Made by a program: the position numbers and the translations under genes. A stretch of 32,595 nt of DNA from Bacteroidales bacterium (GTDB lineage: Bacteria > Bacteroidota > Bacteroidia > Bacteroidales > VadinHA17), in assembly GCA_027067975.1 (NCBI GenBank), contig JAMOUS010000205.1, positions 1 to 32,595 on the forward strand, given 5' to 3'. The notes under the pieces are model-generated. The model saw only the letters and a list, made by a program, of their open reading frames with translations, did no database searches and was not told the DNA's origin. This document shows positions 2,148 to 7,694 of this stretch, piece after piece; position 1 is the stretch's first letter; the number at the start of each line of letters is the position of its first letter.

Positions 2148-3240
2148 TCACACTTTCCCTCCATACTGCATCAGGTATTCTTTGATGAAGTCGTTGATCT
2201 CGCCGTCGAGGACGGCCTGGACGTTGGAGGTTTCGTACCCGGTACGCAGGTCTTTGACCATTTTGTAAGGATGGAGGACATAGCTGCGTATCTGGGAGCC
2301 CCATTCGATCTTTTTCTTTTCCCCTTCGAGTTTGGCCTGTTCTTCTTTTTTCTTTCGCAGTTCCAGTTCGTAGAGGTGGGATTTGAGGATGCGTAGGGCG
2401 TTCTCTTTGTTCTTGAGCTGGGAGCGGGTCTCCTGGTTCTCGATGACGATGCCGGTGGGGATATGGCGCAGGCGTACGGCGGTTTCCACCTTGTTGACGT
2501 TCTGTCCGCCGGCGCCGCTGGAGCGGTAGGTTTCCCAGACGATGTCGGCGGGGTTGATCTCGATCTCGATCTTTTCGTCGATGAGGGGGGAGACGAACAC
2601 CGAGGCGAAGGTGGTTTGGCGTTTCCCCTGGGCGTTGAAGGGTGAGATACGCACGAGGCGGTGGACGCCGTTTTCGCTTTTCAGGTAGCCGTAGGCGTAT
2701 TCGCCGTCGAACTCGAGGGTGACCGACTTGACGCCGGCCTCGTCGCCGGGGTGGTATTCCACTTCGCGCACCTTGTAGCCGTTCTTTTCGCCCCAGCGGA
2801 TGTACATGCGCATGAGCATCTCGGCCCAGTCGAGGCTTTCGGTGCCGCCGGCGCCCGAGTTGATCTTCAGCAGGGCGCCGAGGCGGTCTTCCTCACGGCG
2901 CAGCATGTTGCGCAGCTCGAGGTCTTCGACCTTCTTGAGGGTTTGCTGATATTGTTTCTCCACCTCCTCTTCGGAGGCTTCCCCCTCCTTGAAGAAGTCG
3001 GCCAGCACCTGCAGGTCGTCGACGGCAGCGGCGGCCTCGTCGTAGGCTTCGACCCATTTTTTCAGTTCGGAGATCTTCTTCAGCTGGGCCTCGGCCTTCT
3101 TGGGATCGTCCCAGAAGCCCGGCTGTTGGGTCACTTTCTCCTCTTCTGCGATCTGTGTGCGTTTGTTATCGATGTCAAAGATGCCTCCTCAGCGCATCCA
3201 GGCGCTTCACCAGCTCGTTGACTGCTTCGGGTTGGAACAT
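2148..3240 (-). CDS. prfB: Peptide chain release factor 2 (RF2), with programmed +1 frameshift
   Basis: RF2 recognises UGA/UAA stop codons and triggers peptide release. The gene is in two frames: ATG at 3240 opens 21 codons ending CAT CTT and then an in-frame TGA (3177-3175). Slipping +1 at CTT-T gives GAC (3176-3174) and continues to the stop at 2148, for a total of about 363 residues, normal for RF2. Domains: N-terminal helical bundle; SPF tripeptide anticodon-like motif at about 199-201; GGQ peptidyl-release motif at about 244-246 ([11 protein letters not shown]). An in-frame GTG at 3134 could be mistaken for the start but would cut off 35 residues. It is probably transcribed from the TACCTTTG element at 3269-3276, and the two minus-strand genes after it may share this transcript. 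Confidence 0.96.
3174..3189 (-). promoter_or_regulatory. prfB: prfB programmed +1 frameshift site
   Basis: The minus strand reads AGG AGG CAT CTT TGA C. An internal Shine-Dalgarno-like AGGAGG (3189-3184) lies three bases before the slippery CTT (3180-3178), followed by the UGA stop with a 3' C. This is the classical RF2 autoregulatory element: low RF2 slows reading of UGA and favours slippage, making more RF2. Confidence 0.95.
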
Positions 3241-3853: not shown

Positions 3854-3863
3854 GCCAAAAAAA

Positions 3864-3889
3864 GAAAACCGCCCAGCCGGGCGGTTTTC
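3864..3889 (-). terminator. Rho-independent terminator after the rhodanese/porin unit
   Basis: An 11-bp perfect stem (3864-3874 with 3879-3889) with a 4-base loop. On the minus strand a T-rich tract (TTTTC then seven Ts) follows, so it terminates transcription coming from the rhodanese gene and insulates recX. Confidence 0.88.
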
Positions 3890-3913
3890 CCTGTAAGTGG
3901 GTTTGTGGTTTAT

Positions 3914-4777
3914 TTATTTTTCAACGGGGTTGGATCTGTCCATTTGCCATCCCAGGTAGGCTTTGTCGTACACTTTGACATTGGGATAGTTTAAAATACT
4001 CTTCAGGGCGAAGAAGACGATACCCGCCCGCACGCTGGTCTTGCAATAGGTAATGATCTCCTTGTCGGGGGTGACCCCTTTGGCTGTGAAGAGTTTTTTC
4101 AGTTCGTCTGCGGACTTCAGCCTGCCGTCCGGGGTGAGGACCTTCTTGTATTCGATGTTGATGGCCGAGGGGATATGTCCGGGGCGAAGCCCTTTGTTCT
4201 CCTCTCCAGAATATTCGGCGGGCGATCGGGCATCTATGATCACATAAGCGGGATTGCCGATTGCTTTTTTCACCTGGGCGGTGGTGGCCAACAGTTCGGG
4301 ATGGAGATGTGGGGTGAAGACCGCCTTTTTTATGTAGGTGACCGCACTGGTCACCGGTTTCCGTGCCGCTTTCCAGGCGGGCATCTGCCCGTCTAGAATC
4401 CTGACATCGGGAGCCCCCAGGTATTTCAGGATCCAGTAAAGGCGCCCGGCATATTTTCCGGAGCCATCGTCGTAAAGTACAATGGTCTTTTTCTCCGTGA
4501 TGCCGTACTCTCCCAAGATCGCGGCGATCTCCTGCGGCGGGGCCAAGAAACCGTTGGTCACCGGTTCGCTGTACAGTTCCATGTGGTAAACGTTCACGGC
4601 GCCCGGGATGTGGACTTTGTCATAATCAGACGGCTTGCGACAAGAGACGATGATCGTGTTCTTATCCCTCAGTCTTTTGGCCAGTTCGGCCACCGTGATC
4701 AGATCGGCCGCACCGGCAGTGAAAGAGCTTAAAAGCAGAAGCCATACAAGAGTGAAGACAGATCTTTTGGTTTTCAT
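3914..4777 (-). CDS. Exported two-domain rhodanese (sulfurtransferase)
   Basis: Predicted periplasmic thiosulfate or 3-mercaptopyruvate sulfurtransferase, 287 residues. Residues 1-23 form a signal peptide (basic start, Leu-rich core, AGAA). The first rhodanese domain (about 25-140) has aspartates (DD103-104) where the catalytic cysteine would be, so it is the usual inactive half. The second (about 165-283) carries C245 in the loop CKTSVRA, after IITY, with DARSPAEY and GHIPSAINI earlier. The loop resembles neither the classic CRKGVT nor CGSGVT exactly, so the sulfur donor cannot be named. It is the last gene of a three-gene unit, 18 bases after the porin, followed by a strong terminator. Confidence 0.9.
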   Translation of the reverse strand: MKTKRSVFTLVWLLLLSSFTAGAADLITVAELAKRLRDKNTIIVSCRKPSDYDKVHIPGAVNVYHMELYSEPVTNGFLAPPQEIAAILGEYGITEKKTIVLYDDGSGKYAGRLYWILKYLGAPDVRILDGQMPAWKAARKPVTSAVTYIKKAVFTPHLHPELLATTAQVKKAIGNPAYVIIDARSPAEYSGEENKGLRPGHIPSAINIEYKKVLTPDGRLKSADELKKLFTAKGVTPDKEIITYCKTSVRAGIVFFALKSILNYPNVKVYDKAYLGWQMDRSNPVEK

Positions 4778-4795
4778 AGATATGTTTTTTTGGAA

Positions 4796-5824
4796 TTAGA
4801 ACTCAACTTGCAGTTGGACCATAAAGGCGTCGTTGGGAACTTCTTTCAGACGTTCCGAACGGTAGAGGTAGTTCACCTGGATGCGTGTCCAGTCGTTGGG
4901 GAAGTAGTTGATACCGTAGGTGATGCACTGGTCGATATTGTCGGCGATGCTGATGTCATCCCGGAAGAATTCGTATTTGATCACCGGTTGGAGTTTCCAG
5001 GGGGTCATATACATCAGCATGGCATACATTCCGTCACGGGAGACGGGGCCTTCATGGAACTCGATGGGGGAGCCGTCGCATCCGCCTCCTGTGGTATATG
5101 AGCCGGTATCTTTGCCGTAGATGTATTCGGCCTGCAGCAACAGGTCGCGCCATTTGAACTGCAACTCTCCGGCAAAGCGCGTTTTCAGGTTGTCCGATTC
5201 AGTGCCGGTAATGCCCCTGCGGAAGCTACCCCCAAAGCGGATCATCTCGGTGGGTTGGATGACCAGCCGGCCGACGATATCTTTTTCTTTGTTTTCGTCG
5301 AAGAAATTCCGCTGGTATCCGTTCATGACCGCGAAGTTATAGCTCACCACCTTGTCAAGGAGGTTTCCCCAGAGCATTAACCCGAGGTCACGGTCGGGGA
5401 GGGCCAGTTCATTGACCACTTTCGAGCGCAGGATGGTATGGAGCTTGTGGCAGGGAGTGTTCAACTCCTGCGAAAAAGGAGGTTTGAACTGGCCCAGGGT
5501 CACCCGTGCGAAGGAGAAACGGTTGTAAGAGATGAAGGCATCCAGGATATAGGTTGCCTGCGGCTTGAAGCGGGAGAAGTCGATCATGGCGTAATAGCTG
5601 AAGTCATACGGGACATTGCCCAGCACACCGATACGGGCACGATTGAAGGTGAAACTGTTTTTCCACCCGTCGCTGGGAGTTTGCCGCAACTCATATTGGG
5701 GTTGGAAGAAACCCACCACGGAAACTCCTTCCTCGCTTTTAGCTTCCATGCATCCCTGGCTGTACATCAGGGATGGGAGGAACGATAAAATGATCACCAG
5801 GATCTTTTTCATGAGAAAACCCAT
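4796..5824 (-). CDS. Outer-membrane porin, OprO/OprP-like
   Basis: 342 residues with a signal peptide (MKKILVIILSFLPSLMYS), alternating-hydrophobicity strands throughout, and a terminal phenylalanine (QVEF), the standard beta-barrel sorting signal. The FTFNRARIGV and VTLGQFKPPFSQE segments are typical of the phosphate-selective porin O/P family as found in Bacteroidota; phosphate specificity should not be assumed. The start at 5824 follows an A-rich TAAACTAA five bases after the upstream stop; a second ATG at 5812 would also give a good signal peptide. Its place between two exported rhodaneses suggests it admits an anion such as a sulfur oxyanion, which is inference. Confidence 0.85.
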   Translation of the reverse strand: MGFLMKKILVIILSFLPSLMYSQGCMEAKSEEGVSVVGFFQPQYELRQTPSDGWKNSFTFNRARIGVLGNVPYDFSYYAMIDFSRFKPQATYILDAFISYNRFSFARVTLGQFKPPFSQELNTPCHKLHTILRSKVVNELALPDRDLGLMLWGNLLDKVVSYNFAVMNGYQRNFFDENKEKDIVGRLVIQPTEMIRFGGSFRRGITGTESDNLKTRFAGELQFKWRDLLLQAEYIYGKDTGSYTTGGGCDGSPIEFHEGPVSRDGMYAMLMYMTPWKLQPVIKYEFFRDDISIADNIDQCITYGINYFPNDWTRIQVNYLYRSERLKEVPNDAFMVQLQVEF

Positions 5825-5829
5825 TTAGT

Positions 5830-6801
5830 TTATTTGGTGTCGCTCACAAGCGGCAGGTCATTGGCCGGGGGTGTCCATTTGTGCGAATGCAGGTTGTCGT
5901 AGATGATGCTGTTGACGCCAAAAAGCATACTTTTGGTGTTGTATCCCAGCACGGTTAGGTAGGCGGTTACCATTGAGGAGGTCTGGCCGGTCCAACAGTA
6001 GGTGACAATGGTCTTGGAAGGATTCAGGTACTTATACTCTTCCCCGGCCAGGGTGAGGGGTTTGATGCGATGGGCATTTGCAATGTTCCCGTATTCGGTG
6101 ACATTTTCCGCATCCCAAAAGTTATTGATGAAATATTTCCCGGGGTCGGCCAAAACATCGGTACTGGAGATTTTTTTGAATCCCTGGGAAAGCATAAGCG
6201 CCACCCTTTCCGACAACATGCCGGCACCGTCAGTGGCGGTTACCGTCAGGTCGGGGTCATCGTACTCTTCATTTTCCAGGATCGATCCGGGGGCGGCGAT
6301 CCAGTTGGGAGAGTCTTTCGTGTCCACATTGTTCTCCCAGGGGCTTGCCAGTGAGCTGGTCCAGCCGGCCATGCCCCATTTCAGCACTTTGGCATCCGGA
6401 TAACCGCTCAGTCGCAAGGCTACCACTGCATGGGCCGCAGTTTGACCGGTATAGCAAGCCACTACGATCGTCTTGCCACCGGCATCTTTGGCTGCATCCA
6501 GAACGCCTCCCAGTGTGCTGTTCACCGCACCTTCGATATGACCAGCAGCATAATCGGCGCTATTGCGAATATCGATTACATAGAAGGAACTCAGATTCTT
6601 ATAAACCGATGCTGCAGGAATGATCCAATCCGTCAGGATGTTGGAAAGATCCATCTGGTTGGACGCAAGGTAGCTTACCAGCGTCTGAAACTCCGGGTCC
6701 GTTTTGCGTTCCGGAACGTTATCCGTACTCTTCTTGCAGGCTGCAATGGACAGGAACAGCACTGCCAGTAACATCCAACTGATTCGTCTTAAGTTTTTCA
6801 T
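5830..6801 (-). CDS. Lipoprotein with two cysteine-bearing rhodanese domains
   Basis: 323 residues. The N-terminus is a lipoprotein signal with lipobox IAAC22 followed by KKS, predicting a lipid-anchored envelope protein. Two rhodanese-like domains follow. The first has VIDIRNSADYAAGHIEGAV (75-93) and a catalytic loop C116YTGQTA; the second has a loop C269WTGQTS. Unlike ordinary tandem rhodaneses, both halves keep the cysteine, and the two loops are nearly identical (CxTGQT). This suggests two active sites passing sulfane sulfur, or a scaffold binding two substrates. It is the first gene of the unit, under a TATCTTTG promoter and a palindromic operator, divergent from the FNR-like regulator. 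Confidence 0.88.
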   Translation of the reverse strand: MKNLRRISWMLLAVLFLSIAACKKSTDNVPERKTDPEFQTLVSYLASNQMDLSNILTDWIIPAASVYKNLSSFYVIDIRNSADYAAGHIEGAVNSTLGGVLDAAKDAGGKTIVVACYTGQTAAHAVVALRLSGYPDAKVLKWGMAGWTSSLASPWENNVDTKDSPNWIAAPGSILENEEYDDPDLTVTATDGAGMLSERVALMLSQGFKKISSTDVLADPGKYFINNFWDAENVTEYGNIANAHRIKPLTLAGEEYKYLNPSKTIVTYCWTGQTSSMVTAYLTVLGYNTKSMLFGVNSIIYDNLHSHKWTPPANDLPLVSDTK

Positions 6802-6830
6802 GACATTTGAGTTTTAGTTTAGAAATGTTT

Positions 6831-6846
6831 TGTGAACACATTCACA
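6831..6846. promoter_or_regulatory. CRP/FNR-type palindromic operator
   Basis: TGTGAACACATTCACA is a perfect palindrome of TGTGAA half-sites with a 4-base spacer, matching TGTGA-N6-TCACA. It lies immediately downstream of the -7 element of the rhodanese unit, where the transcript should begin, so a bound regulator would most simply repress. The divergent FNR-family gene is the obvious candidate ligand. Confidence 0.65.
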
Positions 6847-6849
6847 ATT

Positions 6850-6857
6850 CAAAGATA
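6850..6857 (-). promoter_or_regulatory. Promoter -7 element TATCTTTG for the rhodanese/porin unit
   Basis: Perfect TAnnTTTG on the minus strand, about 49 bases before the lipoprotein ATG. No -33 TTTG is visible. The palindrome at 6831-6846 starts three bases after it. Confidence 0.7.
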
Positions 6858-7004
6858 GGGGAGCAGAGAATATGATGAGTGATTTTTAAGATGTTGTGGG
6901 TCATATAAACTGGCAGGAGTTGGTCAAAAAAAATTATTCTGGAAACAAAAAAAACTTGATTTCAGCTCAAATTTTGTTAACTTGTTACCGAAAGCAGAGA
7001 AAAG

Positions 7005-7694
7005 ATGTACCGGATTGAGATAGATAAATGTCAAGGTTGTGCTTGTATTTCGACGCCGTTTCGATATTTGACGCCCGACGAATTATCGTTCATGAACAGA
7101 AACCGTGTGGACGTATTTTTCCGGCGGGGTGAGTCGTTGTGCAAGGAAGGGGTTTTTGCCTCAAGCATCTATTACATTAAAGAAGGCTTGATCAAGATCT
7201 TTACAGAAGATTTTCACGGTGCGGTGGTTCTGTCTATCGAGACGCGGGGATATTTTTTAGGGCTTCATGCCTTATCCCCTCCTCACAAATACACCTATTC
7301 TGCCACAGCTTTTGAGGATACGAAAGTTTGTACACTGGATATTAATGCTTTCCGAAAAGTATTGGTCAGCAACCCGCTTTTTTCAACGGCGATTCTCAGG
7401 CAGATGAGCAAAGATACGATGAAGAGTTTTGAGCGGATTGCCACGGTGGGAATTAAACAGTTGCACGGGCGTCTGGCTGACCTGTTGCTTTGTCTGTCGG
7501 TGCGGATCTACAGGTCGCGAAAGTTCACCACCTCGCTCTCCCGGCGGGACATGGCAGAGGTGACTATGATGTCGGGGGAGAGCCTTTCCAGGGTGTTGAA
7601 AGATTTCCGGGAAGAGGGAATCCTTTCTGTTCGTGGTAAGACCTTTGAAATTCACAACGTGGATGCCCTGCGGCGGATCAGTCGGACAGGGTGA
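7005..7694 (+). CDS. CRP/FNR-family transcriptional regulator with FNR-like cysteines
   Basis: 229 residues: N-terminal cysteine cluster, cyclic-nucleotide-binding-type beta-barrel (about 25-120), dimer helix (about 125-160) and a winged helix-turn-helix (about 170-220). C9-x2-C12-x-C14 lies just before the conserved PF, and C109 (DTKVC109) aligns with FNR C122, so an oxygen- or NO-sensitive Fe-S cluster is plausible. The recognition helix GESLSR has E192, S195 and R196 in the positions FNR uses to read TTGAT. CRP-type cAMP residues are not evident. It is divergent from the rhodanese/porin unit across a 203-base gap and its stop codon directly abuts that of prmC. Its codon use is visibly more AT-rich than that of mutL or etfBA. 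Confidence 0.9.
   Translation: MYRIEIDKCQGCACISTPFRYLTPDELSFMNRNRVDVFFRRGESLCKEGVFASSIYYIKEGLIKIFTEDFHGAVVLSIETRGYFLGLHALSPPHKYTYSATAFEDTKVCTLDINAFRKVLVSNPLFSTAILRQMSKDTMKSFERIATVGIKQLHGRLADLLLCLSVRIYRSRKFTTSLSRRDMAEVTMMSGESLSRVLKDFREEGILSVRGKTFEIHNVDALRRISRTG

Follow-up and report, generated by a model that had tools for sequence, protein, structure and literature searches.

A rare rhodanese-porin module of Bacteroidota with a predicted Rex-type operator and a possible role in envelope sulfur transfer

The described proteins closest to those of the locus reported here appear to be their homologs ExtH and ExtI of the Geobacter extHIJKLMNOPQS cluster. The ExtHI system comprises a rhodanese lipoprotein, a porin, a divergent LysR regulator and cytochromes, and it has been associated with selenite and tellurite phenotypes (PMC6148476, PMC5877670). 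Transfer of sulfane sulfur in the periplasm is represented by Sud of Wolinella succinogenes, which, as summarized in a later paper, is a periplasmic polysulfide sulfurtransferase that serves polysulfide reductase (Klimmek et al. 1998, cited in PMC3397948). Sulfur disproportionators possess the YTD cluster, composed of YedE, TusA and DsrE (PMC12998232). For the redox-responsive repressor Rex, the operator consensus in S. aureus is TTGTGAAW4TTCACAA (PMC2883068).

Layout of the module and features of its products

The window, i.e., the whole stretch of 32,595 nucleotides of Bacteroidales DNA that was analysed, harbors between positions 3861 and 7694 the genes rhoA, for an ExtI-like porin and rhoB, followed by a strong terminator, together with a divergent gene for an FNR-like regulator. 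The features are as follows.

3861..3892, minus strand: intrinsic terminator of the operon, a 14-pair stem followed by a T run
3914..4777, minus strand: rhoB, exported tandem rhodanese (PF00581, 136 bits, two rhodanese domains)
4796..5824, minus strand: ExtI-like outer-membrane porin of the Porin_O_P family (PF07396, 55 bits)
5830..6801, minus strand: rhoA (Pfam PF00581, two stretches)
6830..6847, no strand: predicted Rex-type operator TTGTGAACACATTCACAA, with no second exact match in the genome
6850..6857, minus strand: Bacteroidota -7 promoter element TATCTTTG, recognized by sequence
6956..6970, no strand: second conserved element TTGATTTCAGCTCAA, kept in three genomes
7005..7694, plus strand: CRP/FNR-family regulator (PF13545, PF00027)

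The intergenic gaps are of 5 bases between rhoA and the porin gene and of 18 bases between the latter and rhoB, and the terminator has an 11-bp perfect GC-rich stem. Housekeeping genes flank the locus, with fumC, arsC, prfB and recX on one side and prmC and ribD on the other. The parts listed by an earlier, sequence-only reading (three genes with these two gaps, terminator, promoter element, palindrome and facing regulator gene) are all found where it had placed them, and the domain calls (PF00581, PF07396 and a lipobox) agree with its description of the products as a two-site rhodanese lipoprotein, an OprO/P-like porin and an exported rhodanese. In the flanking prfB gene, AGGAGGCATCTTTGAC lies shortly before the start of the ORF as listed (about 3172-3190, minus strand), and we take it to be the usual RF2 programmed-frameshift site.

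RhoA has the lipobox LSIAAC, with C22 as the lipid cysteine. Each of its rhodanese domains has one cysteine in the active-site loop, C116 in CYTGQT and C269 in CWTGQT. All of 12 homologs keep C22 and C116, and 11 of them keep C269. The predicted structure of RhoA, of low confidence (pLDDT 49) and used solely for placing the cysteine loops, positions the loop cysteine of each domain at the junction of a strand and a helix, which is its place in known rhodaneses. In several RhoA relatives the lipid cysteine is followed by K-(D/E)2-like residues, a possible mark of surface lipoproteins in Bacteroidota, and the window protein (CKKSTDN) has no clear fit to this pattern. RhoB is a normal tandem rhodanese, kin of 3-mercaptopyruvate sulfurtransferase and thiosulfate sulfurtransferase, with matches to 1uar, 1e0c and E. 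coli MST. Its N-domain loop is degenerate, the cysteine being replaced (YDDGSGK), and its C-domain active-site cysteine, C245 in CKTSVRA, is invariant in seven proteins. Five RhoA-like matches in tandem were observed in one genome (G613:C15:253560-258734).

The best named relative of the porin is ExtI (NF040900 porin_ExtI, 56.6 bits, below the cut-off of 150). OprP and OprO are the nearest solved structures, a distant match with approximately 140-190 residues aligned; the structure prediction for the porin itself (pLDDT 39) was set aside. Three cysteines, C25, C125 and C249, are invariant in seven orthologs, which is unexpected in a porin. Among 40 relatives, the ExtI model has matches in the seven module genomes and in one other only, G029, in which the ExtI-like porin has no rhodanese neighbour. 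Carriage of the porin on plasmids was ruled out, as the plasmid search yielded relatives of 23-29% identity only.

Distribution and genomic surroundings

The module is found in about a dozen Bacteroidota species. The order rhoA-porin-rhoB is present in 10 genomes of five families, i.e., the window genome, G005, G017, G008, G014, G028, G033, G211, G316 and G387, including G008 even though its genes are split over two contigs, and the order rhoA-rhoA-porin occurs in two more (G431 and G679). A CRP/FNR regulator gene usually adjoins the module in its carriers. A class-wide survey of Bacteroidia returned a strong RhoA match in 6 of 395 genomes, showing that the module is rare.

In the window genome and its congener G005, the four-gene module with its regulator is bracketed precisely by recX and prmC. 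The GC content of the module is 50.6% vs. 58.6% for the flanks. The same two genes are adjacent in five module-free genomes (G001, G002, G006, G010 and G011). Because recX and prmC adjoin each other where the module is absent and enclose a lower-GC unit with exact boundaries where it is present, there is strong evidence that the four genes represent a discrete cassette that has been gained or lost, acquisition being the likelier of the two. This adjacency in module-free relatives and the gene order kept in other families also argue that the arrangement is not a product of chance. The four genes had been proposed to form a linked, self-contained unit, and a survey of their co-occurrence in Bacteroidota had been suggested; the recurrence of their order across families and the exact recX/prmC boundaries bear this out, and linkage in relatives was seen in the survey.

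The neighbours of the module in relatives include several genes of sulfur metabolism, in keeping with the link to sulfur compounds initially proposed. A gene for a PhsA/PsrA-type reductase adjoins it in G387 and G431, and in G017 and G008 such a gene lies no more than a few kb away on the contig of the module. The module forms part of a TusA-YeeE-rhodanese operon in G014 and G316, and this operon also includes DsrE in G014. A type III SQR and DsrC are encoded beside it in G008, an SQR in G017 and an SQR-like protein in G387. As for cytochromes, an ExtM/P/Q-like cytochrome accompanied by a Rieske protein is encoded nearby in G017 and G008, and an ExtM-like cytochrome gene adjoins the module in G211 and G387. 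Fusions of about 910 residues that join a cytochrome b (ExtP/Q-like) to an 11-haem ExtM-like part were also observed (L031:9069-11822, L034:4281-7037, L106:6661-9384).

At the window locus, no phs or cytochrome genes are found next to the module. In the window genome, phsA, YeeE and rhodanese genes form a cluster on contig C265, away from the module; the PhsA-like protein of this cluster scores below the PhsA cut-off, and the contig ends within its gene. An 11-haem ExtM-like protein is encoded on contig C126. No close SQR homolog was found in the window genome or in G005, and a close SQR was thus ruled out as a partner in the former. PhsA homologs are present in 9 of the 11 module genomes tested, window genome included, and in 11 of 23 module-free genomes. 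The p-values for co-occurrence with the module, 0.08 for PhsA (Fisher), 0.014 for the ExtM-like cytochrome and 4e-7 for the ExtI-like porin, the last partly restating the definition of the module, are only indicative, since related genomes are not independent samples; the co-occurrence signal as a whole is moderate.

Distant RhoA homologs adjoin cytochromes of the octahaem tetrathionate-reductase family, and others are found in Psr-like operons. Elsewhere in the phylum, in classes other than Bacteroidia, a decahaem cytochrome is encoded beside the RhoA homolog at 17 of 17 loci examined. At L144-L160, also in other classes, the cytochrome is of approximately 450-480 residues, and a small conserved gene (MSEMLGNQ..) often comes next; this rhodanese-decahaem cytochrome pair looks undescribed. 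These contexts of RhoA homologs and of the module, independent of one another, are all indicative of envelope chemistry of respiratory sulfur (or chalcogens).

Operator elements and regulators

The perfect palindrome TTGTGAACACATTCACAA follows the -7 element TATCTTTG after a spacer of 2 bases, and no other site of the 2.79-Mb genome matches TTGTKAANNNNTTMACAA exactly (shuffle p = 0.001). The palindrome is identical to the S. aureus Rex consensus at the conserved positions (PMC2883068). Two divergent rex genes, which score over the NCBIfam cut-offs, are present on contig C46 of the window genome. Among the sites of the genome with one mismatch are one between the divergent rex genes and one just before a gene for GAPDH, a known kind of Rex target. 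The Rex-like box between the rex genes is TTGTTAATTTTTAAACAA (L053, G000:C46), and several genomes of the same genus have such a pair; another Rex-like site was noted upstream of a further CRP/FNR gene beside HdrA/MvhD-type genes (L054/L069, G000:C62).

A Rex-type site occupies the same place in G005, and TGTTA-N6-TAACA versions of it are found in G014, G017, G008 and G211. No Rex box was found at the module in G028, G033, G316, G387 or G431, and G033 has no rex match either. The sequence TAnnTTTG precedes rhoA at the corresponding place in G005 and G017; a TTG at -33 was not observed in the promoter of the operon. An FNR box was ruled out for the palindrome in view of the exact Rex match and of the lack of TTGAT half-sites, and its sequence is that of a textbook Rex (NADH/NAD+) operator. 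The palindrome covers the position where transcription is expected to begin, which is suggestive of repression by Rex that is relieved at high NADH. The palindromic operator proposed at the promoter stands as a perfect palindrome that fits Rex (NADH/NAD+) rather than FNR, and redox control of the module is plausible.

The closest NCBIfam model to the divergent regulator is Fnr (63 bits, below the cut-off of 228). Its cysteines C9, C12, C14 and C109 are kept in the closest orthologs (L030 and L031; three orthologs counted). In the alignment, C109 falls on the fourth of the FNR cluster ligands (Fe-S), and the N-terminal spacing, C9-X2-C12-X1-C14, differs from that of FNR. The regulator has an ExxSR-type recognition helix (GESLSR), and the conserved element of the TTGA..TCAA type has an N5 spacing. 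The latter element, TTGATTTCAGCTCAA, is a unique exact match in the genome, and on account of its TTGA half-sites and of the ExxSR helix it is a likelier candidate operator for the local FNR-like regulator than the palindrome. A canonical FNR box (TTGAT-N4-ATCAA) was not found upstream of the operon in the window genome (G000), G005 or G017. In G008, the divergent regulator is reduced to its first 45 residues or so, with the CENCEC motif kept (L033:1420-1779), and has two further CRP/FNR genes as direct neighbours.

Possible roles and relation to described systems

The reading that we favor, with a probability of roughly 0.6, is that of a transferable envelope module that supplies sulfane sulfur to anaerobic sulfur respiration. 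The genes and their order, conservation and boundaries, the match to a Rex site, and the rex and phsA-like genes of the genome are observed, and transport, sulfur transfer, partner enzyme and direction of regulation are inferred. The anion-type porin would let a sulfur compound (thiosulfate, polysulfide or colloidal S0) pass across the outer membrane, and RhoA, a double rhodanese with a lipid anchor, would together with RhoB take up its sulfane sulfur as a cysteine persulfide. The two proteins might then hand sulfur, in the manner of Sud, to a periplasmic PhsA/PsrA-type reductase or to a multihaem cytochrome encoded elsewhere in the genome. Rex would repress transcription when NAD+ is plentiful and release the operon at high NADH, i.e., when electron acceptors are in short supply, and the FNR-like regulator, which moves along with the three operon genes, would probably tune transcription. 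An exported rhodanese with an active-site cysteine and a Psr/Phs-type reductase are both encoded in the window genome, and the data lend support to a relay of sulfur in the envelope, similar to that of Sud, that would serve the respiration of thiosulfate, polysulfide or S0. This reading is weakened by the lack of phs or cytochrome genes beside the module at the window locus, by the frequency of PhsA homologs in module-free genomes, by the low score of the PhsA-like protein and by the missing Rex box in five module carriers. A bolder and decidedly tentative version is that of an outer-membrane sulfane-sulfur conduit, in which the three-cysteine porin and a possibly surface-exposed RhoA would pass sulfur, as persulfide, from extracellular polysulfide or S0 on to reductases of the periplasm, the whole being a mobile cassette under Rex and FNR-like control.

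The module could instead be the Bacteroidota counterpart of ExtHI, devoted to the reduction of selenite, tellurite or other oxyanions or to extracellular electron transfer. Deletion of extI impairs selenite and tellurite reduction (PMC5877670), and the near-confinement of ExtI model matches to module genomes, the similarity of RhoB to ExtH (77 bits) and the ExtM/P/Q-like cytochromes adjacent in relatives all speak for this possibility. Nevertheless, every match is under the equivalog cut-offs, the neighbours are sulfur genes (PhsA, YeeE, TusA, SQR, DsrC) and the window locus itself is without a cytochrome, which makes such a role unlikely. That the rhodaneses carry persulfide made by SQR or YTD proteins outward or to acceptors, in sulfide or thiosulfate oxidation, disproportionation or detoxification, appears less likely still: SQR and DsrC at the G008 locus, SQR at that of G017 and the SQR-like protein at that of G387 would fit, as would the G014 and G316 operons, which resemble part of the YTD cluster (PMC12998232), but close SQR homologs are missing from the window genome and G005, and Rex control and the Phs association are more easily reconciled with reduction. 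Finally, Rhodanese and Porin_O_P are broad families and OprP/OprO are the solved structures closest to the porin, which would fit a generic envelope set for cyanide or thiol handling or phosphate-type anion uptake, unrelated to respiration; the Rex-type operator, and the fact that genomes with no close relationship repeatedly have multihaem cytochromes and genes of sulfur respiration linked to it, render this the least probable of the alternatives.

To our knowledge, little is understood of the passage of respiratory sulfur compounds through the outer membrane, above all that of S0 and polysulfide, which are poorly soluble. The literature searched yielded no described porin dedicated to such compounds, no paper on a rhodanese with a phosphate-selective porin and thiosulfate or on Rex and polysulfide in Bacteroides, and, among sources that included few subscription papers, no publication on this cassette in Bacteroidota. 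The module offers a concrete and portable four-gene candidate for outer-membrane passage of sulfur compounds in this phylum. It also ties in with the Geobacter ExtHI proteins, in which the role of the rhodanese is unexplained, and suggests a Rex/FNR-like control circuit open to testing.

As in the Rex regulon (PMC2883068), an exact TTGTGAAN4TTCACAA operator is found at the promoter and rex is present in the genome; here, however, the predicted target is a sulfur envelope operon. The modules of G014 and G316 lie within operons akin to the YTD cluster, whereas YedE, TusA and DsrE are all absent from the window module. The likeness to Sud lies in an exported sulfurtransferase from which a molybdenum reductase of the Psr/Phs type would receive sulfane sulfur. 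RhoA differs from it as a double-domain lipoprotein and RhoB as a tandem rhodanese, a dedicated porin is added, and the function of the module is inferred.

The initial view named no described system of this composition, but one with a rhodanese lipoprotein, an outer-membrane porin and a divergent regulator exists in Geobacter ExtHI (PMC6148476, PMC5877670). Both systems have a gene for a rhodanese-family lipoprotein adjacent to that of a homologous porin, with a regulator upstream on the opposite strand, and ExtM/O/P/Q-like cytochromes and a Rieske protein are encoded nearby in some Bacteroidota relatives. In contrast with ExtHI, the module has two rhodanese genes that flank the porin gene and a CRP/FNR regulator with a Rex box instead of LysR, and it is often cytochrome-free and is mobile between contexts, with sulfur genes beside it in relatives. 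No multihaem cytochrome gene is present in the window cluster, the ExtM-like 11-haem gene being on another contig. RhoA has no match to the ExtH model NF040901 at an E value of 0.001, and RhoB reaches 77.5 bits for a cut-off of 200. Since the window proteins fall below the ExtHI family cut-offs, the module is, judging from these scores, a related variant of ExtHI rather than a member of that family.
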